Assembly (NCBI GenBank): GCA_003599275.1
Contig: QZJG01000060.1
Coordinates: forward strand, 88,854-121,655
Direction of reading: 5' to 3'
Source: Nitrospiraceae bacterium
GTDB taxonomy: Bacteria > Nitrospirota > Thermodesulfovibrionia > UBA6902
DNA length: 32,802 nucleotides
Of the stretch, positions 1,835-15,197 are shown piece by piece (the first letter of the stretch is position 1; every line of letters begins with the position of its first letter). The notes below the pieces were generated by a model, which made no database searches, was not told the DNA's origin, and saw only the letters and a list, made by a program, of their open reading frames with translations. Made by a program: the position numbers and the translations under genes.

Positions 1835-2260
1835 ATGCTCAGGCTTTCCACAAAGGCGCAGTATGGAGTTAGGGCGATGTTTGAGCTGGCGAAGAACAAT
1901 AAAAAGGGTCCGTTGTCAATAAGGGAAATAGCTGAAAGGCAGGACGTCTCCGTCGCATATCTTGAACAGTTGCTGAATAAGCTGCGCAGGTCCAGTCTGA
2001 TTAAAAGTCAAAAGGGTCCGGGCGGAGGATATGTGATTTCCCAAAGACCTGATGAAATCAGCATCGGCATGATACTGAATGCGCTTGAAGGGCCGATCTC
2101 CATTACGCAGTGCCTTGGGCCTTCAGCAAAAGGATGCAACCGCATTGAAAGCTGTGTAACCAGGTTGCTGTGGAAGTCGCTCGGAGAAAAGATAGAGAGC
2201 TTTCTGGGAACAATCAGTCTTAACGACCTTCTGAAAGAAGAGGCGAAAATAACGAGGTAG
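1835..2260 (+). CDS. iscR: Rrf2-family Fe-S regulator, IscR-like
   Basis: 141-aa transcription factor with the standard Rrf2 start (LRLSTKAQYGVRAM), a winged helix-turn-helix at about 10-66 (IREIAERQDVSVAYLEQLL, then the GPGGGY wing) and three cysteines C93, C101 and C107 that can ligate a [2Fe-2S] cluster. E. coli IscR spaces its cysteines slightly differently and uses His107 as fourth ligand; here the equivalent position is Arg110, so the fourth ligand is uncertain. The gene heads an operon with a TusA-like, a NifS-like and an IscU gene, and an IscR box overlaps its promoter, so autoregulation by cluster status is the likely role. The start is fixed by the conserved N-terminus although no ribosome binding site is visible. 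Confidence 0.9.
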   Translation: MLRLSTKAQYGVRAMFELAKNNKKGPLSIREIAERQDVSVAYLEQLLNKLRRSSLIKSQKGPGGGYVISQRPDEISIGMILNALEGPISITQCLGPSAKGCNRIESCVTRLLWKSLGEKIESFLGTISLNDLLKEEAKITR

Positions 2261-2264
2261 AATT

Positions 2265-2564
2265 TTGGGTCCATCGGAGGCGGCATTAAAATTGGTAGAC
2301 AACACACACCTTAGATTTCTGGATAAGCCGGTAAAGGCTGACGCTACCACCGACATCATCTATATGATGTGCCCGATGCATCTGCTCACTATTGAAGAAA
2401 AAATAAAGGAGATGGAGAGAGGGCAGATTGTGTCTATTCTCACCGACTATGACGGAGCGCTTGAAGACATCCCGCAGTGGTGCAACAAGACCGGGAATGA
2501 ATTTCTGGGCATCTATGAAGACGTCGATCATTACAAATTCTTTATAAAAAAGGTGCAGGCCTGA
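2265..2564 (+). CDS. TusA/SirA-family sulfur-carrier-like protein
   Basis: 99 aa. The core, from CPMH (Cys36) through the acidic helix and ALEDIPQW to the final FIKK strand, follows the TusA/SirA/YedF fold, in which the Cys of CPxP carries a persulfide. Here the second proline is histidine. Only four bases separate it from iscR and two from the NifS-like gene, so it is translated in the same operon. In known systems TusA takes sulfur from IscS; because the neighbouring IscS homologue lacks the PLP lysine, the sulfur source here is probably different (inference). TTG at 2265 follows GAGG; a second TTG at 2292, about 11 nt after GGAGG, is an equally possible start and would give 90 aa. Confidence 0.75.
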   Translation: MGPSEAALKLVDNTHLRFLDKPVKADATTDIIYMMCPMHLLTIEEKIKEMERGQIVSILTDYDGALEDIPQWCNKTGNEFLGIYEDVDHYKFFIKKVQA

Positions 2565-2566
2565 CA

Positions 2567-3763
2567 ATGAAAAAAATTTATCTGGACCATGTGGCGACAA
2601 ACCCTGTGCATCCCGAAGTCCTGGATGCGATGATGCCTTATTTTAAAGAGCATTTCGGCAACCCGTTGAGCATATACGAGCACGGCATGAAGGCGAGAGA
2701 GGCCATTGAAAACGCAAGGAGCAGCACCGCATCGCTTATAAACGCAAAACCGAAGGAAATCATTTTTACTGCAAGCGGCGCCGAGGCCAACAATTTCGCT
2801 ATTAAGGGAATCGCATACGCCAACCAAAACAGGGGCAAACATATAATAATCTCAAAAATAGAACATCACTCTGTTCTGAACACCGCGCGTTTTCTTGAGA
2901 AATCGGGTTTTGCAGTTACCTATCTGCCCATTGATAAAGACGGAGTTGTCAATCCCGCAGACGTTGAAAAGGCGATAACAAAAGAGACCATCCTTATTTC
3001 AATCATCCATGCGAGCCCTGAAATCGGCACCATAGAGCCTGTCGCTGAAATCGGCAGGATCGCAAAACAGAAAGGCGTAATCTTTCATACTGACGCCGTA
3101 GCATCGGTCGGGAATGTCCCTGTTGACGTGCAGTCGCTTAACATAGACCTCATGTCTTTTGCGGCGCACCAGTTTTACGGGCCTAAGGGAGCAGGCGCTT
3201 TGTACGTAAAAGAAGGCGTGCGGATTGTCCCTCTGGTTTACGGCGGTATACAGGAGGGCGGCAGAAGGGCAGGCACTGAAAACGTCCCTGCAATCGCCGG
3301 AATGGGCAAGGCCGCCGAACTTGCAAAACGGGACCTGCAAAAACGCATAGACTATGTAAAACCATTGAGGGACAAACTGATTAATAATGCCTTAAAGATC
3401 GACAAGGTCATGCTTACCGGACATCCTGGAAATCGCCTTCCAAACCACGCGAGCTTTGTAGCGGAATATATAGAAGGGGAAGCCATGCTTCTTCTCCTTT
3501 CCGCCAAAGGGATATTTGCGGCAAGCGGTTCGGCCTGCAGCTCAAAGGCGTTAAAGGCGTCGCCTGTTTTGATTTCCATAGGCGTGCCTACTCATGTCGC
3601 ACAGGGTTCGGTTGTCTTTACGCTTGGAGAAGGGACTACGGAAGATGACATAAATTATTTCAACGAAACATTTCCCCAGATCATTTCGCGCCTGAGAGAG
3701 ATTTCTCCTTATGCAAAAGGATGGGAAGGAACGGAGGACTCATCATGTACAGCCCAAAAGTAA
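2567..3763 (+). CDS. Cysteine desulfurase homologue (NifS/IscS) lacking the PLP lysine
   Basis: 398 aa, full length and collinear with IscS (YLDHVATNP start, EHHSVL, HTDAV, FYGPKGAGALYV, SGSACSS, FTLG). The Schiff-base lysine (E. coli Lys206, in SGHK) is Gln202 here, codon CAG at 3170-3172. Other cofactor or substrate contacts are also changed: Thr76 to Ala72, Asn155 to Pro151, Gln183 to Ala179, Ser203 to Ala199 and Arg356 to Val350. His100, Asp176, His201 and the mobile-loop cysteine Cys324 remain. Desulfurase chemistry through PLP is therefore unlikely. The intact frame, operon position and preserved cysteine argue for a working PLP-free partner of IscU, as known for Archaeoglobus fulgidus IscS, where the lysine is aspartate. 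Expected role: cluster-assembly platform or persulfide/cluster ligand. Family certain, function inferred. Confidence 0.93.
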   Translation: MKKIYLDHVATNPVHPEVLDAMMPYFKEHFGNPLSIYEHGMKAREAIENARSSTASLINAKPKEIIFTASGAEANNFAIKGIAYANQNRGKHIIISKIEHHSVLNTARFLEKSGFAVTYLPIDKDGVVNPADVEKAITKETILISIIHASPEIGTIEPVAEIGRIAKQKGVIFHTDAVASVGNVPVDVQSLNIDLMSFAAHQFYGPKGAGALYVKEGVRIVPLVYGGIQEGGRRAGTENVPAIAGMGKAAELAKRDLQKRIDYVKPLRDKLINNALKIDKVMLTGHPGNRLPNHASFVAEYIEGEAMLLLLSAKGIFAASGSACSSKALKASPVLISIGVPTHVAQGSVVFTLGEGTTEDDINYFNETFPQIISRLREISPYAKGWEGTEDSSCTAQK

Positions 3764-4116
3764 TGGACCACTTCACTAATCCGAGAAATGTAGGAGAGAT
3801 GCCGGACGCCGACGGCATCGGGACCGAGGGCAACCCCGTATGCGGCGATGTGATGAAGATATTCATAAAGGTGAATGATAACAAAGTAGTTGATGCAAAA
3901 TTTCAGACATTCGGCTGCGGCGCGGCGATTGCCGTATCAAGCATGGTTACCGAGATGGTCAAAGGCATGACCCTTGAAGAGGCAATGAAGATAACAAAGG
4001 GCTCGCTCGCAGAGGCCCTTGACGGTCTGCCGCCGCAGAAGATGCATTGCTCGAACCTCGGCGCGGACGCCCTCCACAAGGCAATCGAGGATTACAGGAA
4101 TAAACAGGGGAAGTAA
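3745..4116 (+). CDS. iscU: Fe-S cluster scaffold IscU (NifU N-terminal type)
   Basis: 123-aa scaffold on which [2Fe-2S] clusters are built before transfer to apoproteins. The three cluster cysteines are C33 (PVCGD), C58 (FGCGAA) and C102 (MHCSNL); Asp35, important for cluster release in IscU, is present. The protein ends without the C-terminal Nfu or ferredoxin-like parts of full NifU. The ATG at 3745 is preferred because GGAGG lies 7 nt upstream; an in-frame ATG at 3721 would add eight residues. The gene overlaps the last 19 bases of the NifS-like gene, so translation is coupled and the two proteins probably form a complex. Confidence 0.92.
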   Translation: MYSPKVMDHFTNPRNVGEMPDADGIGTEGNPVCGDVMKIFIKVNDNKVVDAKFQTFGCGAAIAVSSMVTEMVKGMTLEEAMKITKGSLAEALDGLPPQKMHCSNLGADALHKAIEDYRNKQGK

Positions 4117-4373: not shown

Positions 4374-5441
4374 ATGGACGGAGAATTAAGCAGAAGAGAT
4401 TTTTTCAAGACTGTCGGCATGGGGACCATGGGCATGGGTTTAGGTGTTTCAGCGTTTGACAGTTTTTATCAATACGCGGAGGCGTTGACCGAAGAGGAAA
4501 AACACGAAATGCTGATGAAGGGCGCGGTGAATTTCAAAGGGTTTATGGCAAAGGAGATCACGCCGAACAATGAATTTTATATTACGTCGTATTCATCCGG
4601 CGTGCCTGAAGTCGATCCCGATAAATTCAGGCTGAGGGTAGAGGGGCTTGTTGAAAAGCCCTATTCCCTGTCGATGAAAGAGATAGAGAAAATGAAGGAC
4701 AAGACGGAGTTTGTCACCCTTGAATGCATAGGGAACCCTGTCGGGGGCGATGCCATCTCAAATGCGCTGTGGGAGGGCGTGACTCTCAAAAAAATTATTG
4801 AGAAGGCCGCGCCCAAAACCGGCATTGTAAAGACGGCGTTTTTTGCTGAAGACGGCTACTCAGACAGCATCCCATATTCTTTGTCCCTCTCGGATGACGT
4901 ATTCCTTGCGTTCAGGATGAACGGAGAGCCGCTGCCGGGGGAGCATGGTTTTCCTCTCAGGGCGATTGTGCCCGGCATCTACGGCATGAAGAACGTCAAA
5001 TGGCTTTCGAAGATAGAGCTTGTGGATTACAACTTCAAAGGTTACTGGGAGAAAAAAGGATGGTCGGACGATGCAGTGATTCCCGTCAAGTCGCAGATAC
5101 TCATGCCGATGGACGGCAAGACCATTGAGCAGGGGAAATATGTCATAGGCGGAATCGCCTTTGCCGGCAGACACGGCATAAGCAAAGTCCGGATTTCCCT
5201 CGATGACGGCAAATCCTGGCGCGACGCCGAATTAAAGCCACCGCTTTCAAAATGGTCGTGGACCCTCTGGCGTTATGACTGGGACCCCGCAAAAGAAGGG
5301 GAATACAGGATTACGGTGCGCGCATTCGACAGAAGTGGAAATGTCCAGGAGGCAGGTTCGATTTTCGGAAAAATCTTCAAAACATTCCCCGACGGCGCCA
5401 AAGGTTATCACACGGTCAATGTCAGGGTGGCGAAGAAATGA
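4374..5441 (+). CDS. Tat-exported molybdopterin oxidoreductase, sulfite oxidase family
   Basis: 355 aa. A twin-arginine signal (SRRDFFK, residues 6-12) followed by a glycine/methionine-rich hydrophobic stretch predicts export as a folded molybdoenzyme to the periplasm. The Mo-cofactor domain includes TLECIGNP, with Cys118 the likely molybdenum ligand, and HGFPLRAIVPGIYGMKNVKWL. Residues from about 240 onward form the Mo-co dimerisation domain (DDGKSW, WDPAKEGEYRITVRAFD). No cytochrome domain is fused. Family members oxidise sulfite to sulfate or act on related substrates. A TauE-type exporter gene 13 kb away gives weak support for sulfite handling. GGGAGG precedes the ATG. The last 48 bp of the gene are the left copy of the repeat that bounds the island. 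Confidence 0.88.
   Translation: MDGELSRRDFFKTVGMGTMGMGLGVSAFDSFYQYAEALTEEEKHEMLMKGAVNFKGFMAKEITPNNEFYITSYSSGVPEVDPDKFRLRVEGLVEKPYSLSMKEIEKMKDKTEFVTLECIGNPVGGDAISNALWEGVTLKKIIEKAAPKTGIVKTAFFAEDGYSDSIPYSLSLSDDVFLAFRMNGEPLPGEHGFPLRAIVPGIYGMKNVKWLSKIELVDYNFKGYWEKKGWSDDAVIPVKSQILMPMDGKTIEQGKYVIGGIAFAGRHGISKVRISLDDGKSWRDAELKPPLSKWSWTLWRYDWDPAKEGEYRITVRAFDRSGNVQEAGSIFGKIFKTFPDGAKGYHTVNVRVAKK
5394..5441 (+). repeat. Left 48-bp direct repeat (candidate attL) in the sulfite oxidase 3' end
   Basis: A perfect 48-bp match to 15373-15420, beginning GGCGCCAAAGGTTATC and ending GGTGGCGAAGAAATGA with the gene's stop codon. Identity stops at once on both sides, as expected for a site-specific recombination core or target duplication. 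Confidence 0.9.
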
Positions 5442-5461: not shown

Positions 5462-5863
5462 CTACATAGTCCAATCCACAACTCGCAAGTTGTTTATATG
5501 TTTGAATTCCCTTGTATTACTGGTGACAAGAGTTACGCCAAGACAAAGCGCATGAGCGCCGATCAGCATATCCATTGATCCGACAGGTTTTCCGGCTTTC
5601 TCAAGCGCTGCACGGACCACTCCGTATGATTCAGCCGCTTGTCCATCGAAGTCGGCAATTTCAAGCGGCAGCATGAATTCATCAAGCGCCTCTTTGTTCT
5701 TCTGTATGTGCCGGCTTTTTGCAACGCCATACTGGAGTTCTGCAAGGGTGATAGAAGAGATGCCTATGTCACCTACGGCATGAGATACAAAATGTTTGAG
5801 TACTTTTGGGGGCTTGTTCTTTATTATGTAAATGCAGGTATTTGTATCAAGCATTAACTTCAT
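5462..5863 (-). CDS. vapC: VapC toxin, PIN-domain ribonuclease
   Basis: 133-aa PIN-domain RNase. Acidic Mg-binding residues are visible as Asp6 (LDTNTCIY), Glu42 (LAELQYG) and Asp98 (GSMDMLIGAHAL), followed by TSNTREF near residue 114. VapC toxins cleave tRNA or rRNA when freed from VapB. The ATG shares one base with the antitoxin stop (TAATG at 5865-5861), typical of coupled toxin-antitoxin pairs. It lies directly inside the left island boundary, where such modules often stabilise mobile DNA. It starts ATGAAG on the minus strand; there is no sign of truncation. Confidence 0.9.
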   Translation of the reverse strand: MKLMLDTNTCIYIIKNKPPKVLKHFVSHAVGDIGISSITLAELQYGVAKSRHIQKNKEALDEFMLPLEIADFDGQAAESYGVVRAALEKAGKPVGSMDMLIGAHALCLGVTLVTSNTREFKHINNLRVVDWTM

Positions 5864-6090
5864 TACAGGTCCTCTCTTTTCTGAAGTTTTGGCTGTTTCC
5901 TTTCGGACATGAAGTCATCAGAAAATTTATTGAGACTGTCAAACAGGGACTCCCATGAGCCTTTAGCCGGAATTAAGACGACAACATTTCCTGCCTTCTT
6001 GATAAAAACATGGTCGTCCTCAAATCTGAATTCCTTAGGCAATCGCACAGCCTGACTCTGGCCATTCTGAAAAAGCTTCGCAGTTTTCAC
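5863..6090 (-). CDS. vapB: VapB antitoxin, AbrB/SpoVT-type
   Basis: 75-aa antitoxin starting at GTG, which follows GGAGG at the right distance. Its first 45 residues (KTAKLFQNGQSQAVRLPKEF, then VFIKKAGNVVVLIP) form the swapped-hairpin AbrB-like DNA-binding domain of VapB. The remaining acidic/basic tail, including WESLFDSLNKF, should block VapC. The upstream in-frame extension to 6147 has no ribosome binding site and would run through the operator, so I reject it. A 23-bp inverted repeat just upstream is the probable autoregulatory operator. Confidence 0.88.
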   Translation of the reverse strand: MKTAKLFQNGQSQAVRLPKEFRFEDDHVFIKKAGNVVVLIPAKGSWESLFDSLNKFSDDFMSERKQPKLQKREDL

Positions 6091-6105
6091 AGTACACCTC
6101 CATTT

Positions 6106-6128
6106 AATATATATTGTCAGTATATATT
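6106..6128 (-). promoter_or_regulatory. Inverted-repeat operator of vapBC
   Basis: AATATATA and TATATATT are perfect 8-bp arms separated by 7 bases, lying 15-38 bp upstream of the vapB start. VapB-type proteins bind such palindromes and repress their own operon. A -10-like TATACT overlaps it on the minus strand. Confidence 0.6.
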
Positions 6129-6174
6129 GATGCCCCTTGTTTTGCAACTAAAATTTGTAGCAAGGAGGTATGAA

Positions 6175-6455: not shown

Positions 6456-7322
6456 TCATGTCTTATTAATAAGCTTTCTTAAATCATCAATATCAAGTAT
6501 TGATTCGCCTTGATGTAACATTGCATGACAATTTGGACAAACAGGACATAAATCTTCAATAGGATTTACTTCATACTCTTGTCTGATTTCAGATAGCGGT
6601 TTTACGTGATGGACATGAATAAAACCCTCCCCGATTTTTCCATATACTTTTCCAAAATTGAAGCCGCAAACAATGCAATCTATTCCATAATGGGAAATAC
6701 ATTCTTTTCGAGCTGTTGGATCTCTTTCATATCTATCCACTACTACGGTTGTCACAGAACCTTCTTTATACTTTTTTATATCTGAAATTTCATCAGGATA
6801 AATGGTAAGTTCTCCTTCTGCTGAAATATGCTCAAGCCCTTTATCTATCGTGTGAACATCCTCTATTTTCTTGGACTCAAGGGATTTCTGACTATTTAAT
6901 TTAGCAAAGTATTCAAAACGTTCATTGGCATTTTGTCCCTTTATATTTTTAGCTTCTTTCCATTCTTGAAAGCACTCTCCGTGAAGAAATTGATTTTTAA
7001 TTTCTTCACCTTGTTCTCCAAGATGTTTTCCAATTAATACGATATAACCCGGCCTGCTGATATCTCCTGATATTTTTTTTGTATCCTCTTCTTGTTCATA
7101 TAGATTTCTGTGTTTATCAAAAAAATTGCGATCATAAAGTCTCACGGTGATGCCTTTGCTATCATCACAATAATAGAACCATTTTATTCGTTGATGTTCA
7201 AAAGATTTCAATTTTTCAAATAATTCTTTTTTATACTTGATTAAACCGTTACCTTTAACAATATTCTCCATGCACCTCACGCAATGTTCAAAGTTATCAA
7301 TCCTTACAAGATAGCTACCCAT
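6456..7322 (-). CDS. McrA-like HNH endonuclease
   Basis: 288 aa. The C-terminal third is a well-formed HNH (beta-beta-alpha-metal) nuclease: CIVCGF (C216, C219), HVHHVKPLSE (H236, H238, H239), Asn253 and CPVCPNCHAMLH (C262, C265, H266, H270). The cysteines should hold a structural zinc, and the histidines and Asn the catalytic metal. The string NPIEDLCPVCPNCHAMLH closely resembles the nuclease part of EcoKMcrA, a type IV enzyme cutting modified DNA. Residues 1-190 are charged, AT-rich in codon choice and unrecognised; they may sense the target. GGAGG precedes the ATG. Upstream lies one copy of the CTGCCA/TGGCAG operator and a leader shared with the helicase unit, so it probably belongs to the same regulon. 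Confidence 0.85.
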   Translation of the reverse strand: MGSYLVRIDNFEHCVRCMENIVKGNGLIKYKKELFEKLKSFEHQRIKWFYYCDDSKGITVRLYDRNFFDKHRNLYEQEEDTKKISGDISRPGYIVLIGKHLGEQGEEIKNQFLHGECFQEWKEAKNIKGQNANERFEYFAKLNSQKSLESKKIEDVHTIDKGLEHISAEGELTIYPDEISDIKKYKEGSVTTVVVDRYERDPTARKECISHYGIDCIVCGFNFGKVYGKIGEGFIHVHHVKPLSEIRQEYEVNPIEDLCPVCPNCHAMLHQGESILDIDDLRKLINKT

Positions 7323-7480
7323 TCATCCCTCCTGTCTTCCTCACTCATTCGATTATCCCTGCTTAGCGCCATCCTCCAGCACAGCCTGAACTGCAGAATA
7401 GGGTGCCGGCTTTTTTTATACTATACCTAACCCTGCCTGCCAGCATTATGGCAGGATGAATCTTTAAACTACTTGAGAAA
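7323..7480 (-). repeat. Leader repeat, copy A (operator to ribosome binding site)
   Basis: From the operator down to the HNH ribosome binding site the minus strand is clearly similar to 14136-14270: shared blocks include GGTATA with an A-run, CCCTAT, GCAG, TCAGG and GCTGGAGG. Both copies have a WYL gene 3' end immediately upstream, so a block of WYL tail, operator and leader has been duplicated. Confidence 0.7.
7420..7455 (-). promoter_or_regulatory. Operator A and promoter of the HNH gene
   Basis: CCTGCCA (7436-7442) and TGGCAGG (7449-7455) form a perfect palindrome around GCATTA. About ten bases downstream on the minus strand is a -10-like TATAGT (7425-7420). The same 18-bp core recurs near 14231 and 15251, so this is a candidate binding site for the island's WYL regulator. 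Confidence 0.65.
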
Positions 7481-7582
7481 TTACTGGAATTTATTTATTG
7501 CACCTTTGAACTCGGCATATATTTTATCCCTTAACTGCATTGGTGCGATAACCTCCACATGAGGCAGCCAGAGGTAATCCAT
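7481..7582 (-). pseudogene. C-terminal remnant of a second WYL regulator
   Basis: An open frame of 33 codons reading WLPHVEVIAP, LRD, IYAEFKGAINKFQ and stop matches the last 31 residues of the WYL protein encoded at 14271-15197, at both DNA and protein level. The remainder of this copy is missing; the ATPase gene ends 28 bp upstream. It is a decayed duplicate, not a working gene. Confidence 0.8.
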
Positions 7583-7587
7583 GTCTG

Positions 7588-7603
7588 ATAATATCAGCTT
7601 TTG
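7588..7603. repeat. 16-bp direct repeat, copy 1, just after the ATPase gene
   Basis: ATAATATCAGCTTTTG is identical to 10808-10823, which lies in the 3' end of the helicase gene. The pair brackets the GHKL ATPase gene. Confidence 0.7.
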
Positions 7604-7609
7604 TTCTCG

Positions 7610-10600
7610 CTATTTACTCAAGATCGTTTTCAGATCAAACCAGTGAGTACCGACAAAAAGCAACTTAAATTCTCTTCCAGCGAGCTTTACAGAAATCTCT
7701 ACGGATGACGCAGTATCATCCGCATCAAGATGGAGAATGTCATGTTGGATGGCCTTGTCGTCTGTCTCTCTGGCGTGTTGATACATAGCTGCACAGGTGG
7801 GACAAAGCGCGAGGCGATTTTCAAAGTGGTGCTGATCGAGTCCGCGCACGCATTGAATGGCTTCGAAATAATGAGCCTTGACTATCTTAAAAGGCATTTC
7901 AGCGTGGCAGCACTGGCAAATTAACTGTTTATCCGAGTTCGTGTACTTGGCACGAAGGTAGGCTTTTGCCTCTGCGACAACACTGCTAACTCCAGGCTGA
8001 ATAGCGCGTTCACGGCTGACACTTTCTTTTGTCGGCGCATTTTCTCGCCGCTCCAGCACCCTTTTTCGACGTCGCTCAGGATTCCTAACCGATTCCGAGG
8101 GTTGCTCGACCCGCCTTGTATATTGCGCAAGAATATCTTCGGGGGGGATACCAGCCTCTTTCACCTTCAGCCACTTAGCCAATTCCTCTGCTGAGTCGAA
8201 GCCGTTATCTTTGGCGCTTTGGTCTCTGGCCTTGTATTCCTCGCACTGTTTCTTCGCATTCTCGCCGACGCCGATAGCGGTCAATAAGCCATTGCGATCA
8301 TCGTATGGGAAGTCAATACGCAGATCGTCTTTCGTCATGTCCTGAGGTTTTTTAAAATCTCCAGATTTGTCTGGAATCCATGCATGGCGTTTCAGGTGAT
8401 AAACGAGTTGAGACTCTACTTCCCTTATTGGGTACTGTTGATTTGGTCGACAACGTGCCTTTGCAGATTTGGAAGAGGCATGAATAAGGGCATCCCATAG
8501 CAGACAACTTGCTGATACTGATTTCATATCTAAATACTTGTCAATATAGGAAATCGAATAATCCTCATTGATTGCAGTACTAGTCCATTTCGTTCTATGG
8601 CGATTCCTGTCTTGCCATAACACACCAGTATGTGGATTTTCATGAGTTCCCACATTTTTTATTTCCAGCTCATGCATTATTCCAATCATTTTCAAGAATG
8701 CTGTAAAATCTTTCAAATGGGTCTCGCTCAGTTTATCCTTATAGCTGTCATAGATCGGAATCTTACCATGAATACTTACCATCTCAGAAAGTCCGGTTTC
8801 TATGTAAGGGTTATCCAGACATAGCTGATCGGGTTTGAGCCAGTATAGCTCATTATCATGTGAAACACCAAGCAAAAAAGTTTTATTGCTGAATATGCCA
8901 CCTTCGTTAGGATTTTTCTTCCAATAGGCAATGAACTGCTTTATATCTTTGTAGTAGCTTTCTCTTACTTGCGTAGGTGGCGATTTATATTGAGCCAGCT
9001 TCAATTCTATCACTGCCTTAGCGTCGAAAAGGCGCACACCAGATTTCTCCAAAAAAGAGTAGGCGAATTTTTTCCGCTCTTCCGCTTTGCCGGTGCTATA
9101 GACAGTTGGCTTGACAAAACTAATGTTAGTCGGAGGAGTTGTCTCAGCGTTAGGAGGGAAGAAAGCTTCTTCGGGTGCTATATGCTCAGATGATTCACTG
9201 TGATCAGTTTCAACTCTTACGATGCGCAAAGTGCTTACGTCCACTCTTTTATAGTGAGTCTCGCAAACCTCGCCCAGTAAGGCATAAAAACGCATAAGCC
9301 AGGCATCATCTTTCCCGACTATCCAGTCTTCGATACGTCGCTTGTGTTGGGTGTTTTCTTCTCTTTGCTGATCTGAGTACGGAAAACTGTATGGCTTGTT
9401 TATTGCTCTGGCAATCTCGCTCCATCCCCACTCATTAATCTTTAGGCTGTCGAGAAAACGGTCTTCCCGCTGATTTTGCTGAGGCGGATTGGCGGCCCAC
9501 AATGGAGGATCACAACTCGTCAGCAATGATAAGTCGTCGTCATTTAAGACATCTACGATTTTGGCGGGACCACGATAAAGTCCGCTCGCTTTCGCATGAG
9601 TACCACATTTTGTCGGGGTAAGCGATTCATTCTTGAATGCATGGACAATGGCCGTGCGAATTGGTTCGTAGAAAGGCGGTAAGTTATCGATAATATTGGG
9701 CATAACCGCCAGAAAACCTACGGTCAACAAGTCTTGGTCGCGGATAGAAAAGAGCGATTCAACTATGAGATCGGCGACATGGCTGCACAGATGTTGGTTG
9801 GCCTTGCATTCACGTACGCTGTCCCGCGCAACAGTCGAGGCAAATGGCGCATGGAGATGGAAGCGCAGGTTGGAAGTCTCCTTATCGGCGGGGAAGTAGA
9901 TGGATACTTGTCCACGGTCAAGTGGTATGATCTTCCATGTCGATTTGCGTTTCTTCTTGTCTTTCTCTTCAACGATGCTGTAAGCCACAGCAATACGACA
10001 GGTCTTGGGCTTAGCGTCCTCATCCACCACCTCAACTTCTTTTTGAAAACGTAGCCAATGCGATACAGTATCGCTGCCCCCTGGATGACTGGCGCGAATC
10101 TCGATCCGTCCTCCTTTATGGTCAATGCGCTCCAGCGCGCCGAGAGAACCATCAGGGAGAAGGTATTCAATCTTGCGGATATGACTCAAGAACAGCAAGG
10201 TATTGTCGCCCAAGGCTCGAAGACCCTCTTCAATTTCTGTCAGTGCTTTTTTGGAGGGTTTTTTCGGATTGTCGAATGGAAAAATGAAACGAGTTTCCCG
10301 TTCACCCATGCGCGGTCGCGTGACACCATTCGGTTCCGGCACTACAAGATCATGGATGCGGAAATGGAATTCACCAGAGTGTATTTCCGGAGTATTGGTG
10401 TAGGCAAATACCGACTTAAAGCCGATTCCGAACTTTCCAATACTAGTGGGGTCATTGATTTTTGTGCTTTTTCCACTAAAACTGGTAATCGCCTTAACAT
10501 CTGAATAAGAAAAAAGACCATCACCATTGTGCTCGAATTCAAGAGAACTTTCGTTCAAGACAAAGCGAACTACTGAAGCTCCAGCACTCTTGATGACATT

Positions 10601-10762
10601 TTTATCGCGCGCATCCTCAGCGTTTTGGAGCAATTCAAAAATAAAATGAGCTTTGTGTGGGTAAAGGTTCGTCAACAGTTCTTTGAAACTGGCGTCTTCT
10701 CCTCGCCGTCGCAATACATCAATCAACTCTAAGCCACTCTGCCTTAGTTCTTCGAGTTTCAA
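7610..10762 (-). CDS. Sacsin-like GHKL ATPase with C-terminal HNH-like zinc motif
   Basis: 1050-aa cytoplasmic protein. Residues about 1-220 are a GHKL (Hsp90/histidine-kinase-type) ATPase: N-box FELLQNAEDA with Asn47, HNGDGLF (Asp81) and SIGKFGIGFKSVFAYTN (108-124). This arrangement is that of sacsin-like ATPases common in bacterial defence islands. The middle is unrecognised. The C-terminus (about 942-1050) carries ICQCC, a His at 964, HH at 978-979, Asn982, CPTC at 987-990 and His996, an HNH/treble-clef-like pattern that could be a nuclease or zinc-binding domain. The start is TTG at 10762, whose bases overlap the helicase stop (TTGA), implying translational coupling; no nearer ATG exists. 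Base composition differs from the helicase gene, and a 16-bp repeat flanks the gene. Confidence 0.82.
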   Translation of the reverse strand: MKLEELRQSGLELIDVLRRRGEDASFKELLTNLYPHKAHFIFELLQNAEDARDKNVIKSAGASVVRFVLNESSLEFEHNGDGLFSYSDVKAITSFSGKSTKINDPTSIGKFGIGFKSVFAYTNTPEIHSGEFHFRIHDLVVPEPNGVTRPRMGERETRFIFPFDNPKKPSKKALTEIEEGLRALGDNTLLFLSHIRKIEYLLPDGSLGALERIDHKGGRIEIRASHPGGSDTVSHWLRFQKEVEVVDEDAKPKTCRIAVAYSIVEEKDKKKRKSTWKIIPLDRGQVSIYFPADKETSNLRFHLHAPFASTVARDSVRECKANQHLCSHVADLIVESLFSIRDQDLLTVGFLAVMPNIIDNLPPFYEPIRTAIVHAFKNESLTPTKCGTHAKASGLYRGPAKIVDVLNDDDLSLLTSCDPPLWAANPPQQNQREDRFLDSLKINEWGWSEIARAINKPYSFPYSDQQREENTQHKRRIEDWIVGKDDAWLMRFYALLGEVCETHYKRVDVSTLRIVRVETDHSESSEHIAPEEAFFPPNAETTPPTNISFVKPTVYSTGKAEERKKFAYSFLEKSGVRLFDAKAVIELKLAQYKSPPTQVRESYYKDIKQFIAYWKKNPNEGGIFSNKTFLLGVSHDNELYWLKPDQLCLDNPYIETGLSEMVSIHGKIPIYDSYKDKLSETHLKDFTAFLKMIGIMHELEIKNVGTHENPHTGVLWQDRNRHRTKWTSTAINEDYSISYIDKYLDMKSVSASCLLWDALIHASSKSAKARCRPNQQYPIREVESQLVYHLKRHAWIPDKSGDFKKPQDMTKDDLRIDFPYDDRNGLLTAIGVGENAKKQCEEYKARDQSAKDNGFDSAEELAKWLKVKEAGIPPEDILAQYTRRVEQPSESVRNPERRRKRVLERRENAPTKESVSRERAIQPGVSSVVAEAKAYLRAKYTNSDKQLICQCCHAEMPFKIVKAHYFEAIQCVRGLDQHHFENRLALCPTCAAMYQHARETDDKAIQHDILHLDADDTASSVEISVKLAGREFKLLFVGTHWFDLKTILSK

Positions 10763-13700
10763 TTCCCGACCTCTATAACCATAATCCCAAAAGCTACAGG
10801 CTCGCTTATAATATCAGCTTTTGCCTTTGCATCTTCTATCTCTTTCATGCGTCTCTGAAAATCAGCCTCAGCAGATGTAATCTGGCTAATCCTCATACGC
10901 TTAATCCTGTCATTCTCAGCCCTGCTTAATAGATCATTCAGTTGATTTAGTCTTGCATTATGACTTGTTTTTAAACTCTCAGTGCGAAATTCTATCATGC
11001 GGTTATTGTTCTGGATATGTTTATCTCTTGCAGTAATCCATAGACCGTAATGCTGTTTATCCAGTTCGTCAAAGATATGATTTCCCGGCAGTTCATAAAG
11101 GCCTTCTGCATCGGTTGCTGTTGTAATCAACTGCATAAAAGAGCGAGACACGGCATCTGAATTACAGACCACCTGCAGTTCTGCATCTGATTTGACCCCT
11201 GTCTTTTGCCATTGATAAACAGCAAATGGATACTTCCCGGATGGTATTGAATAGCCAGAAGTTCTTACTATGACATAAAGAGGAGGCTTTTCATGAAGTA
11301 CAGACGCCGCCTGACGTATAAGCGGATGAACAGGGGTAATAAAAACAATGTCTCGATTTTCTGTAGCGAACGTGGCATCAAAAGTAACCGGAAGATATGC
11401 ATCTCCACCCTTAAGCCATTTTTCCCATTCCCTATAGACGGGAGAAGATTGTTTTGGTATCTGCCGGTAATCTGACAGAAGTTTGTTTCTTGCTTCCTGA
11501 TTTAACCTTAATGTTTTTGAGTCCTTCTCCCCTAAAAGTGTTTGTTCCGTTCCTGTGACTTTTTGCAAATACGTCTCTACAAGATTCTGAAGTGCTTCGG
11601 GACTTAGCCAGAAACTGCTCGCATCTTCAATATCCTTTTTCGCTCTATCCATCGGCAGACTAAGCCCGAATAACTCTGCTTGCCTTTCTTCCAATTCGTC
11701 CTGTTCCATTTGAAGGCGGAGCTCATTATCTGCAAGCTGCTGGAATTTTCTTTTCCGTTCATCCTCAGTAAGTTTATAATTTTCTGCTATATCCATTATC
11801 TGCCGGCTGATTTTCCCTAATATTTCCTCACTGCCTCCAAGACTTCTTTGAAAAACCCCGATTCTTATAAGGCAGCGCTCATATATATCGGCATCTACTG
11901 TGTCAGGAGTGATGAAATTGTAAACAAGAACAGTCTCGCTTTTCTGCCCATATCTGTCTATGCGACCAATACGCTGTTCAACTTTCATGGGGTTCCATGG
12001 TATATCATAATTAACCATACAATCGCAGAATTGATAATCCAACCCTTCGCAACCGACTTCAGAAGAAAGCAAAATATCTATTGCATCCGTGTTCTCTTTT
12101 GGCAGGCTGAAACGATGCCTTAAATCTTGTCTATCATAATCTTTAATGTCCCCGTGTATAAGTCCGATTCTGATACCACTGTTAATTAATTTTGTGTGGA
12201 GATAACCAAGTGTATGCCTGAATGTGCTAAAAAGTAATATCTTATTATTAGAAATAAGTTGTTTTTGCTTTACAATGTTAAGGAGGGCTTCGGATTTAGG
12301 ATCTTTTTTATCCAAATTGCTGCCCATATCTATTATTGACTGAAATTTCTTCATTAGGGACGACAGGTCTTTTTTATCTAATTCCTTAATTGTTTCATTA
12401 AATGTTTCTAAAGATTCAGCCCACTCCTCTTCAAGGCTATCTCCTTCAACAATCCTTGCTAAATTCCTTCGTAAAATAACCTGTAATAATGGGGCAAGAC
12501 CATGAATACAGCTTGACGCCTGTCTTCTCAACGTTGTCATCATGAATTTAATCTGTTGGGAATCATGAATCAGAGATAATATTTCAGCCTGAAGTTCCAA
12601 TAATGAATCATGTAACTTTTTCTGATCAGGGGTAAATTCAACGGTAACGGTTTCGGGTTTGCGAATTGTAAAAGCCCCTATGTCCCTCCTTCTTGTTCTA
12701 TTAATCAAAGTTGAGAATGTATGAAATTGTTCTGTGGTTCGGACAAATTCAAGGCGTTGCTCTGAGGACAAAGGATTTTCAAGAAGTGTTATTGCCTGTT
12801 GAAAATCAGGATTGCTTTGCAGCATTATTTGCCCCCAACTTGTTGAAGATGCCATACTTAAAGCATCCCTGCTTTTTGCCTCCCATTGAGGTTGAGCGGC
12901 ACGAGCAAAATCTATTGCCTGATTAATGAACGGATTAGGCTCTGCCATGTGTTCGAAACTGCTGCGGTCAATAATCAAGTCCGGACGTAACAGGTTAAGC
13001 AGGACATAAAGATCATTATCTCCCAATTGTATAGGTGTTGCAGAGAGGTGGAGTACCGCCTCTGCATTGTCACAGAAATATCGCGCTACCTGATGAATAT
13101 AAGTGTTTGTATTACGCAAATGATGCGCCTCGTCAATTATAACGAGGTCAAACTGAACCGGCGGGTCAAGTTCAAGGAGACCCTTCTGTTTCTTCCTGCC
13201 TTTTCCTTCTCCGGTTAAAAGCGCCTCATTGAAAAGTGAAAAAGGCATTATGGTTTTACTGTGCTGAGACGGCCATGTGCCGTCTAAATCCGTTTCATTA
13301 ATACAGTAACGTACAGCAGGGCCATCAAGGTGTGTAAATTCTTCATCAAACCTCTTTAACTCAAGCTGCCACTTTCGATCAGTAACAAGAGGCTTGGGAC
13401 ACAAAACCAATATAGATTTAATATCCATTCTCGCCTGCAATTCACGGAGAATTAATCCAGCTTCAATAGTCTTACCTACCCCCACTTCATCTGCAATTAA
13501 CAGCCTTGGGCGATCAGAGCGGATGAGTTTCATAACGGGTTTAAATTGAAATGGGATAAAGTTGACTCTTGCAGAATGCAGGGAATAAAGAGACGCAATT
13601 CCAGGATGATTGATTTGTATTGCCGTTAATCGTGCATTAAATAATTTCAGCGGTATCGGCTTTATTTCTTCTTCTGCCAGTTGCGAAGGAACTATTTGGC

Positions 13701-13854
13701 TTGCGTAGTATATATTCTTAGAATTTCCATGAAAAACTTCATAACGTGCTTCGTGATCGCCTTGCAGTACTCTTGTGATAACACCAACAATTGATGGGTT
13801 AGATTTTAAAGTGACCATTTGCCCAATTTGAAATTTACTTTCACTCAAAGCCAA
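10759..13854 (-). CDS. SNF2-family helicase, RapA/HepA-like
   Basis: 1031-aa superfamily 2 DNA translocase. An N-terminal Tudor-like segment (about 9-55: QMVTLKSNPSIVGVITRV) resembles RapA. Helicase motifs follow in order: motif I ADEVGVGKTIEAG (121-133), motif II DEAH (241-244), motif III SATP (271-274), then in the second lobe LLSSEVGCEGLDYQ and QRIGRIDRYGQ (motifs V-VI). The final third is charged and probably coiled. Such proteins remodel nucleoprotein or translocate on DNA; in defence systems they are coupled to effectors. The gene is directly followed, with overlapping stop and start, by the GHKL ATPase gene, suggesting one complex. It starts at TTG 13854 after AGAGGA; no better start is visible. 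Operator B lies about 380 bp upstream. Confidence 0.88.
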   Translation of the reverse strand: MALSESKFQIGQMVTLKSNPSIVGVITRVLQGDHEARYEVFHGNSKNIYYASQIVPSQLAEEEIKPIPLKLFNARLTAIQINHPGIASLYSLHSARVNFIPFQFKPVMKLIRSDRPRLLIADEVGVGKTIEAGLILRELQARMDIKSILVLCPKPLVTDRKWQLELKRFDEEFTHLDGPAVRYCINETDLDGTWPSQHSKTIMPFSLFNEALLTGEGKGRKKQKGLLELDPPVQFDLVIIDEAHHLRNTNTYIHQVARYFCDNAEAVLHLSATPIQLGDNDLYVLLNLLRPDLIIDRSSFEHMAEPNPFINQAIDFARAAQPQWEAKSRDALSMASSTSWGQIMLQSNPDFQQAITLLENPLSSEQRLEFVRTTEQFHTFSTLINRTRRRDIGAFTIRKPETVTVEFTPDQKKLHDSLLELQAEILSLIHDSQQIKFMMTTLRRQASSCIHGLAPLLQVILRRNLARIVEGDSLEEEWAESLETFNETIKELDKKDLSSLMKKFQSIIDMGSNLDKKDPKSEALLNIVKQKQLISNNKILLFSTFRHTLGYLHTKLINSGIRIGLIHGDIKDYDRQDLRHRFSLPKENTDAIDILLSSEVGCEGLDYQFCDCMVNYDIPWNPMKVEQRIGRIDRYGQKSETVLVYNFITPDTVDADIYERCLIRIGVFQRSLGGSEEILGKISRQIMDIAENYKLTEDERKRKFQQLADNELRLQMEQDELEERQAELFGLSLPMDRAKKDIEDASSFWLSPEALQNLVETYLQKVTGTEQTLLGEKDSKTLRLNQEARNKLLSDYRQIPKQSSPVYREWEKWLKGGDAYLPVTFDATFATENRDIVFITPVHPLIRQAASVLHEKPPLYVIVRTSGYSIPSGKYPFAVYQWQKTGVKSDAELQVVCNSDAVSRSFMQLITTATDAEGLYELPGNHIFDELDKQHYGLWITARDKHIQNNNRMIEFRTESLKTSHNARLNQLNDLLSRAENDRIKRMRISQITSAEADFQRRMKEIEDAKAKADIISEPVAFGIMVIEVGN
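10808..10823. repeat. 16-bp direct repeat, copy 2, inside the helicase 3' end
   Basis: Encodes part of the AKADII segment near the helicase C-terminus and is identical to 7588-7603. See the partner copy. Confidence 0.7.
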
Positions 13855-14000
13855 CTTATATTTCCTCTATTAAAGCAGTATCAATTAGCATACACTTTTC
13901 ATTTCCCCATCTGACCATCAGCCTTTTTCATTTCATTAAAAAAACATCCAGCAATACTATCGGAAATTAATAGTACTAAGGCCTTCGTATTTAAACATTT
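13855..14000. other. AT-rich gap before the helicase gene
   Basis: This part of the 416-bp space 13855-14270 shows no gene, strong hairpin or clear promoter; weak -10-like hexamers occur on the minus strand. The rest of the space holds the 44-aa ORF, leader copy B and operator B. Confidence 0.5.
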
Positions 14001-14135
14001 TTAAATTATTTTGGTAAAGAAGAAAAACGCAGGAGAAAGACGCAGGCGATCATATGTCCAACCGCCATCCAAATCTTGTATCATATCTCCTGATATGGCA
14101 ATCCTTTTATCCATACATTCCATTCTTCCTTCCAT
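14001..14135 (-). CDS. Small ORF (44 aa) in the helicase leader
   Basis: An ATG at 14135, preceded by GAGGAGG at good spacing, opens a 44-codon frame starting MEGRMECMDKRIAISGDM. It occupies the position where the HNH gene begins in the duplicated leader, so it is the first frame downstream of operator B. It could be a small regulatory or toxin-neutralising peptide, a leader peptide for the helicase, or a stump of a lost gene. I recognise no family. Confidence 0.35.
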   Translation of the reverse strand: MEGRMECMDKRIAISGDMIQDLDGGWTYDRLRLSPAFFFFTKII

Positions 14136-14270
14136 CGTTCCTCCTCTTTTATTCTTATTCTGCGCATCCCTCCAGCATCCTGATCTGCGGGATAGGGCGC
14201 CTACTGTTTTTACAATATACCAACCCCACTCTGACAGCATCATGGCAGTCTGAAAATTATGGCATCAGCA
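14136..14270 (-). repeat. Leader repeat, copy B, with operator B
   Basis: Similar to 7323-7480. Contains operator B, CTGACAGCATCATGGCAG at 14231-14248 (outer arms CTGaCA/TGGCAG), then a -10-like TATATT and the shared blocks down to GAGGAGG. It lies immediately after the WYL gene stop and upstream of the 44-aa ORF and helicase gene, so it probably drives the helicase-ATPase unit. Confidence 0.65.
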
Positions 14271-15197
14271 CTATTGAAACTTATTTATTGCCCCCCGGAG
14301 CTCAGTATATATAGTATCCCTTAATTTCTTTGGTGCGATAACCTCCACATGAGGCAGCCAGCGGTAAATCCAGGTCTTGATCCCTTCCGTCCCGTTGACC
14401 CTGAATCTGACCTCGATACCGCCGTCTTTCAGTTCTTTTATCTTCTGGCTCTGGTGCCACTTTTTTCTTGTGATAAAAGCCTTGCCCGCCGCATCAACGC
14501 GTAAAACCACATCAACAGGTTTTCCGTCAATTACGGAGCCGAAAGAATTTGACAGTTCATCCTCCGGCGAAATATCTACAGGTACAAAGTGCTTGTTCAG
14601 GACCTTTATAGAGGATATTCTGTCAAGGGCGAAAGTCCTGAAGTCATTTCTGAGATGACAATGACCCCTCAGATACCAGATATCATCATTATAAAAGAGA
14701 TAGTACGGATCAATCTCACGCGAGATTGTCTTGCTTGAATAAACGCTTTTGTATGCAAATGCCACTGTTTTGAAATTGGTTATGGCATGTTGAAGGCTAC
14801 TCATATTACCGGTTACAAGCGCCGGAGGTTGAGCAGCTTTAAATATTAGATAGTTCGGCAGGCCGGTCTCTTTCATGTCAAGCCTCTGTTCAAGGCTGTT
14901 CAGACCCTTCTCTATGCCTGTCCCGAAATTTTTCAGGAGGTTCTTCGCAAGAGCAAATGAGAGGCTCTCCTCCACAGAGAGGTTTGGTTTCTTCAGACTG
15001 AATCCCTCAACAAAACGATAAGTCCCTTTTTCTCTGTCATAATGTATGGGGAAGCCGGCAATCTGCAATGTCTGAAGATAACGGTGAACACTCCTTTCAC
15101 TGACCTCGATATCATTTATTAAAGAATAAACCGTGACTTTTTCATTGCGGTCAAGCTTGTTGAGGATTGTTATCAGTGAATCAAATTTGTTTGACAT
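14271..15197 (-). CDS. WYL-domain transcriptional regulator
   Basis: 308 aa. An N-terminal HTH_11-type winged helix (about 1-65: SLITILNKLDRNEKVTVYSL, SERSVHRYLQTL) is followed by a WYL domain (about 130-215) that contains the literal motif DIWYLRGHC and RTFALDRI, and by a WCX-type tail ending LPHVEVIAPKKLRD. WYL regulators of this layout (PafC/BrxR/CapW relatives) commonly control defence loci and may sense nucleic-acid ligands. An operator identical in core to those upstream of the HNH and helicase units lies just upstream of this gene, suggesting autoregulation and control of the whole island. AAGGGG precedes the ATG. Confidence 0.9.
   Translation of the reverse strand: MSNKFDSLITILNKLDRNEKVTVYSLINDIEVSERSVHRYLQTLQIAGFPIHYDREKGTYRFVEGFSLKKPNLSVEESLSFALAKNLLKNFGTGIEKGLNSLEQRLDMKETGLPNYLIFKAAQPPALVTGNMSSLQHAITNFKTVAFAYKSVYSSKTISREIDPYYLFYNDDIWYLRGHCHLRNDFRTFALDRISSIKVLNKHFVPVDISPEDELSNSFGSVIDGKPVDVVLRVDAAGKAFITRKKWHQSQKIKELKDGGIEVRFRVNGTEGIKTWIYRWLPHVEVIAPKKLRDTIYTELRGAINKFQ

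Follow-up and report, generated by a model that had tools for sequence, protein, structure and literature searches.

What can an IscS-type protein still do when the lysine that binds pyridoxal phosphate (PLP) has been replaced? All iron-sulfur assembly systems except SMS are stated to include a cysteine desulfurase (PMC11559095; papers are cited here from excerpts, by PMC number). A 32,802-nucleotide stretch of DNA from a Nitrospiraceae bacterium, hereafter the window, encodes an IscS-like protein with glutamine in place of this lysine. We analyzed this protein, called IscS* here, together with its relatives and its genetic neighbors. With moderate confidence, we suggest that IscS* is a pseudo-desulfurase to which TusA and IscU dock, and which hands sulfane sulfur, or lends its cysteine, to the scaffold.

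Active-site residues of IscS*

The iscS* open reading frame (2567-3763, + strand) encodes 398 amino acids and contains no internal stops. The product matched PF00266 with 255.9 bits and scored below the curated cut-off of the NCBIfam NifS equivalog TIGR03402 (503 vs 530.75 bits). An AlphaFold model had an intact IscS/NifS fold (mean pLDDT 89.5, pTM 0.88), with pLDDT below 50 at residues 325-328, directly after Cys324, as expected of a mobile loop. Among solved structures, the closest were human NFS1, Archaeoglobus fulgidus IscS and E. coli IscS, also in complex with TusA (TM-scores by query length, 0.89-0.92; 0.90-0.92 for the top IscS and NFS1 hits).

We mapped residues onto the E. coli K-12 IscS protein (L253). 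Codon 202 is CAG (3170-3172, +), placing Gln202 where E. coli has Lys206. T76, N155, Q183 and S203 of E. coli are replaced by A72, P151, A179 and A199, and the substrate-binding arginine R354 aligns with V350. H104, D180 and C328 are kept as H100, D176 and C324, the last being the persulfide-carrying cysteine (codon TGC, 3536-3538, +). An earlier interpretation of this DNA (the sequence-only reading) had reported the glutamine codon, five further substitutions, and the retention of the three residues and the fold. All of these observations held, except that its numbering was mixed: the arginine is R354 in K-12, not 356, and Cys324, His100 and Asp176 are window numbers.

Residue roles can be read from the structure of the desulfurase SspA. 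The Schiff base is formed on Lys201; the carboxylate of cysteine is bound by Arg340 and Asn150, and the variants R340E and N150D were impaired in function; the PLP ring is held by His99 and Asp175, its hydroxyl is contacted by Gln178, and the phosphate is contacted by Ser71, Ser198 and His200 (PMC7188994). By order along the sequence and alignment, Lys201, Arg340, Asn150, His99 and Asp175 correspond to Q202, V350, P151, H100 and D176 of the window protein, and Gln178, Ser71, Ser198 and His200 to A179, A72, A199 and H201. In IscS*, neither substrate contact remains (V350, P151), and the lysine (Q202), the glutamine (A179) and two phosphate contacts (A72, A199) are missing as well. It has kept His100 (ring stacking), Asp176 (ring nitrogen) and His201 (phosphate). 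With no residue left to bind the cysteine carboxylate and no lysine for the Schiff base, IscS* is unlikely to be a cysteine desulfurase. Judged from its residues, loss of desulfurase chemistry appears well supported. The sequence-only reading had also called the protein PLP-free. The sequence does not establish this, since His100, Asp176 and His201 are kept and a figure legend shows PLP in 4EB5, a complex of the lysine-less A. fulgidus IscS (PMC9769115).

We found that the glutamine is a character of the clade. We aligned the window protein with 91 relatives. The lysine position was Gln in 89 of the 92 rows, Leu in one (L037) and Lys in two (L001 and L002). The two Lys rows are canonical paralogues from the window's own genome, one of which adjoins a NifU-like fusion gene. 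Among the relatives alone, Gln was present in 88/91 and Leu in one. dN/dS was 0.020-0.127 for 15 close pairs within the Gln clade, supporting purifying selection on the gene. Counted from the matches listed, 125 of 395 sampled genomes of the phylum had a match with at least 60% identity to the window protein. Nine of these 125 matches carried an in-frame stop flag; in the three that we inspected (L038, L142 and L216) the aligned part was open to residues 384, 367 and 386. All 522 matching records in a plasmid collection had less than 60% identity.

A pseudogene or an assembly error would explain the loss of active-site residues, and the stop flags could be read the same way. We give this explanation practically no chance. 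The conservation of Gln in 89/92 rows excludes a sequencing error at 3170-3172 and, together with the low dN/dS, rules out a pseudogene; the operon is also preserved. The claim of the sequence-only reading that the gene is intact therefore stands.

Probable order of residue loss

We took a census of 163 distinct IscS-type proteins, gathered by searching one phylum with the window protein as seed and with E. coli IscS counted among the 30 Arg-bearing members. One contig scan among these searches contributed the best 80 of its 258 loci. Matches covering fewer than 300 residues and duplicates with an identical core were excluded. The substrate arginine was missing from 133/163. This set is defined by the missing Arg, and it is an independent finding that all 133 also lacked the PLP-binding glutamine (Gln179 position). 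Cys324, His100 and Asp176 were present in 133/133. At the lysine position the Arg-less proteins had Gln (113), Lys (7), Asn (3), Arg (2), Pro (2), and Leu, Ile, Met, Ser, Thr and Val once each, so that Lys was replaced in 126/133, by ten different residues. Among the Arg-bearing proteins, 29/30 had both Lys and Gln. We considered lysine loss as the key event, but Arg350 and Gln179 were gone in all 133 proteins and Lys was still present in seven. The substrate site is for this reason the better mark of the family.

One protein counted among the 133, L168 (31% identity, branch length 7.0), is of doubtful membership. Its genome (G123, family f30) encodes two odd IscS-type proteins: L152, with Arg kept and Leu at the lysine position, and L168, with Val at both positions and a very long branch.

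Trees were quick maximum-likelihood trees with SH-aLRT support only and with 11 active-site columns left out. In these, 58 Arg-less rows formed one group (SH-aLRT 98), with A. fulgidus IscS and the very long L168 outside. A. fulgidus IscS was placed beside the Arg-less group in one tree, with support of 31, and outside the group in the tree with the long rows. With the long rows L168 and L139 removed, there was a single change of Arg, and Lys changed twice among the Arg-less rows other than A. fulgidus; over all 88 rows there were one Arg, two Gln and four Lys changes. With L168 and L139 kept, Arg changed three times and Lys five times. These are parsimony counts, in which loss and regain look alike. 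From the counts without the long rows, we suggest that the substrate site was lost first and the lysine later. If regain is excluded, Lys was lost more than once.

The iscR-tusA-iscS*-iscU cassette

iscS* lies in a run of four closely spaced genes, all on the + strand (1835-4116): iscR, tusA-like, iscS-like and iscU. The first (1835-2260, +) encodes an IscR-like Rrf2 regulator, with 135.7 bits to PF02082 (cut-off 30) and 144 bits to TIGR02010, below the cut-off of 207.55; its C93, C101 and C107 were present in 96/96 aligned rows. The second (2265-2564, +) encodes a TusA-like sulfur carrier (PF01206, 67.6 bits; cut-off 28.6). Its start codon is uncertain and is given as the listed TTG at 2265. 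C36 and C73 of TusA were invariant in 97/97 aligned rows; from the motif, we take them to be the equivalents of Cys19 and Cys56 of E. coli TusA. The iscU scaffold gene (3745-4116, +; TIGR03419, 207.2 bits, cut-off 187.9) is listed as an open reading frame from 3721. The conserved start is ATG at 3745, a position with Met in 97/107 rows, and the gene thus overlaps the end of iscS* by 19 bases. IscU has three Cys ligands and one Asp ligand: C41, D43, C66 and C110, found in 106, 106, 107 and 105 of 107 rows, respectively, the remainder being gaps. The overlap (3745-3763) also encodes the C-terminal Cys394 of IscS*. This residue is Cys in 26/28 Gln-clade tree rows and is probably a by-product of the kept iscS*/iscU overlap.

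We found that this arrangement is conserved. Genes for iscR, tusA and iscU formed an operon-like run with iscS* for 91/102 Gln-clade proteins, in agreement with the sequence-only reading, which had described the gene as operon-encoded. iscU followed iscS* in 99/102. Beyond the four cassette genes, every gene cluster was confined to 18 or fewer of the 55 loci of the Gln clade that we compared.

A TusA gene lay within 1.5 kb on the same strand for 119/133 Arg-less proteins. In contrast, none (0/30) of the Arg-bearing proteins had one. Some loci had only about 1.5 kb of flank, and a TusA gene farther away would be missed on either side of this comparison. The Fisher p value of 2e-22 is inflated by shared descent: the number of independent pairs on the tree is one. 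Because the Arg-less proteins form one clade, the association may have a single origin. More telling than the number of cases is that the IscS*-TusA pair was kept through rearrangements. tusA preceded iscS* in 97/133, mostly as iscR-tusA-iscS*-iscU; followed iscS*-iscU in 13/133; and followed iscS* with no iscU nearby in 9/133 (L220-L226, L209 and L210). In three of these iscU-less cases (L221, L225 and L226) the iscS* and tusA genes touch. The remaining 14/133 had no TusA gene nearby, some because the contig ends; in seven of the 14 (L121, L124, L127, L217, L227, L230 and L231), both flanks extended for 3.8 kb or more. The idea that gain of TusA went with loss of Lys was weakened, since TusA lay beside 4/7 of the Lys-bearing Arg-less proteins.

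The TusA protein itself differs between the two settings. In the window the active motif is CPMH, with His replacing the second Pro of CPxP. CPMH was found in 93/97 Gln-clade rows (others: CPIH in two, CPRQ in one, CPEA in one), whereas CPxP was found in 22/22 outside the Gln clade. The TusA motif therefore shifts with the partner of TusA.

In five of the iscU-less cases (L220, L221, L222, L225 and L226; families f35 and f38), the IscS*-TusA pair lies downstream, on the same strand, of a gene that by eye resembles a membrane fatty-acid desaturase. There the pair may serve something other than IscU.

Proposed sulfur delivery and other IscS-type enzymes

The close precedent for IscS* is A. fulgidus IscS (IscS 2; PDB 4EB5, 4EB7 and 4HVK; D199K mutant, 4R5F). 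There, too, the lysine (Asp), the Gln183 equivalent (Ala) and the arginine (Leu) are replaced and the persulfide cysteine is kept. The sequence-only reading had cited this protein, and we confirmed the Asp in its sequence; its complex with IscU is described in PMC7585200, which reports no desulfurase activity for it in the excerpts cited. The two proteins have different residues at the lysine position, and identity is 44% in the fold alignment with 4eb5. In the archaeon Methanosarcina acetivorans, IscS1, encoded in an iscSU pair, is likewise without the catalytic lysine (PMC7585200). The cassette also resembles the minimal iron-sulfur (MIS) system MisS-MisU, an IscS and IscU homologue core with Rrf2 regulators nearby (PMC12442378, PMC9973013, PMC11559095), in that iscS* lies beside iscU without further ISC genes. 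However, MisS is listed as a cysteine desulfurase. IscS* lacks the residues for this, and a TusA gene adjoins it.

The E. coli IscS-TusA-IscU system (PDB 3LVJ and 3LVL) has homologous partners. There, IscS has separate, neighboring docking sites for TusA and IscU, both with access to the persulfide cysteine, and TusA Cys19 lies 4 Å from IscS Cys328 (PMC11302665). By analogy, we infer that TusA and IscU dock beside the cysteine loop of IscS*. Sulfur in E. coli flows from cysteine to IscS to TusA. In contrast, the flow that we propose starts from TusA, because IscS* should not be able to start it. IscS* would keep the IscS fold and the mobile Cys324 loop and would no longer use cysteine as a sulfur source. 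TusA would acquire sulfane sulfur from polysulfide or dissimilatory sulfur metabolism and dock on IscS*, and the sulfur would pass via Cys324. IscU would receive this sulfur and build the cluster, which Cys324 might partly hold as in the A. fulgidus IscS-IscU complex. The absence of catalysis, TusA as donor, the direction of flow, the sulfur source and the relay are what we infer: if IscS* cannot make sulfane sulfur, TusA would now bring it, and the conserved TusA partner favors such a relay. E. coli IscU and TusA compete for IscS (PMC11302665); in a relay, the two would have to dock one after the other. The window proteins also lack the salt bridge that joins IscS Arg220 to TusA Glu21 in E. 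coli, having E216 and, two residues after the TusA cysteine, M38.

Our results suggest that iron-sulfur assembly in these sulfur-metabolizing bacteria is fed by a route other than cysteine. More tentatively, the cassette could be a desulfurase-independent iron-sulfur line of sulfide-handling Nitrospirota, in which TusA loads inorganic or respiratory sulfane sulfur via the pseudo-IscS cysteine onto IscU, opposite to the direction in textbooks. Desulfurase activity would have been dismantled stepwise, substrate site first and lysine later, perhaps repeatedly. A desulfurase-free line is chemically plausible, since H2S can serve as sulfur donor on IscU in an anaerobic E. coli iscS mutant (PMC13015791). 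dsrA was over cut-off in 36/41 genomes, the window's own and relatives.

We asked which other desulfurases these genomes encode. The window's genome (3.05 Mb, 89% complete) has two other NifS genes (on C30 and C7), both with Lys and Arg, which answers the suggestion of the sequence-only reading to look for a second, lysine-bearing IscS or SufS. In a PF00266 scan of 42 further Gln-clade genomes, 40 had a full-length second hit of at least 240 bits, not read residue by residue; of the other two, G353 had a partial hit and G031 a hit in two frames. Seven genomes had no other IscS-type gene: G016, G026, G151, G275 and G311 (estimated completeness 92-98%), G402 (80%) and G033 (84%). Other strong class V hits in these seven were SerC by NCBIfam (L163, L164, L166 and L167); L170, L173 and L260 were glyoxylate-type aminotransferases by NCBIfam, below cut-off. 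G004 is not a clean IscS*-only genome, because it has SerC (L174) and a weak SufS relative (L165, 144.5 bits vs a cut-off of 475.1). IscS*-only genomes were mostly chosen for showing one match, from 125 Gln-clade genomes. The argument that they prove independence from cysteine was weakened, since at such completeness a handful of genomes lack any given gene through assembly gaps. We do not use them as proof, because such gaps could explain most cases. Real loss of the other IscS-type gene is hinted at only in genus g79 (both members) and in g17 (absent from G026, in two frames in G031).

SUFBD matched at E 1e-10 or better in 57/200 genomes of the class; 143/200, the window's own included, had no match at that threshold. 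Of 32 strong SUFBD hits (at least 128 bits), 23 were in families f12 and f17, whose genomes, G402 excepted, had no match of at least 60% identity to IscS* by best E-value and the matches listed. From this distribution, much of the class has no visible IscU/SufB-type system other than the cassette, alone or together with a NifS paralogue.

The main rival to a relay is a ligand-only model in the style of A. fulgidus. IscS* would hold IscU and lend Cys324 as the fourth ligand while a cluster forms from free sulfide; it would bring no sulfur, and TusA would have a side role. We consider this possible, though rather unlikely. It draws on A. fulgidus IscS, which shares the three replacements and whose cysteine ligates the IscU cluster (PMC9769115, PMC7585200), on the use of H2S by E. 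coli IscU (PMC13015791), and on dsrA in 36/41 genomes. However, it leaves unexplained why TusA lies beside 119/133 Arg-less proteins and why nine IscS*-TusA pairs have no nearby iscU. The sequence-only reading had offered both roles, cysteine ligand and acceptor of sulfur from sulfide or polysulfide. It had named tusA as a neighbor without drawing on it, and the conserved TusA partner tilts the choice toward a relay of sulfane sulfur.

Less probable still is that IscS* is a regulator or decoy that binds IscU, TusA or both, or heterodimerizes with a canonical NifS, and so controls sulfur traffic. Lysine-bearing enzymes coexist with it in the window's genome, at least 40/42 genomes have a second class V hit of IscS size, and the fold is preserved. 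Such a second enzyme could also be the sulfur source in most genomes, which counts against a relay. On the other side, the cassette accompanies iscU in 99/102 Gln-clade proteins, and five genomes that are 92-98% complete have no other IscS-type gene, although assembly gaps could cover most of these. We judge it improbable, more so than a decoy, that IscS* is still a desulfurase or another PLP enzyme, with PLP held non-covalently by His100, Asp176 and His201 and with cysteine or another substrate. His100 and Asp176 are in 133/133 Arg-less proteins, Lys persists in seven, and a figure legend in PMC9769115 describes PLP in A. fulgidus 4EB5. However, the window protein lacks both contacts to the cysteine carboxylate and three more contacts to PLP, the lysine has ten different replacements across the set, only 49/59 Arg-less tree rows have His at position 201, and A. 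fulgidus IscS is reported to lack desulfurase activity (excerpt of PMC7585200). Transfer of sulfur, or loan of a cysteine, by a pseudo-desulfurase docked with TusA and IscU is the reading that we prefer.

Lysine-less IscS proteins of A. fulgidus and M. acetivorans (PMC7585200) and two-gene MIS systems (PMC12442378, PMC9973013) were already known. In the open-licence papers that we searched, neither this family in Nitrospirota nor the ordered loss was described, and we found no pseudo-desulfurase paired with TusA. The TusA partnership of a desulfurase-dead IscS is new here. A widespread, selected, desulfurase-dead cassette that is nearly always found with TusA would make the A. fulgidus puzzle a general design, and would give a bacterial handle on the cluster sulfur of sulfide-rich anaerobes and perhaps of early life. 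Family models score iscS* genes as NifS/IscS, and some genomes may for this reason be assigned an activity that they lack.

Several other observations concern the genomes and the rest of the window. In G013, G014, G188 and G296, canonical-size NifS-like hits lie inside open frames 1129-1147 codons long, suggesting a fusion of NifS with a long additional segment. MnmA had the motif PNPCxxC in all ten readable proteins (L239-L247 and L249; the partial L248 gave none), at places that by our own reading match Asp99 and Cys102 of E. coli. This motif does not discriminate, because it was also present where the Gln type is absent (L244, L245 and L247). PMC11784392 discusses MnmA with three cysteines in connection with tRNA thiolation that depends on a [4Fe-4S] cluster. 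After iscU, the window encodes a relative of molybdopterin sulfite oxidases resembling the SorA family (4374-5441; 185.6 bits, below the cut-off of 600), a gene absent from the listed recurring neighbors of the 55 Gln-clade loci. It is followed by a pair that by eye resembles a VapC-like PIN toxin and an AbrB/VapB-like antitoxin (5462-6147, - strand). The region at 6456-15197 (- strand) encodes an HNH nuclease, a sacsin-type ATPase with TmtA hits (187 bits), an SNF2 helicase with DrmD hits (375 bits) and a WYL-domain regulator, and looks like a defence island.
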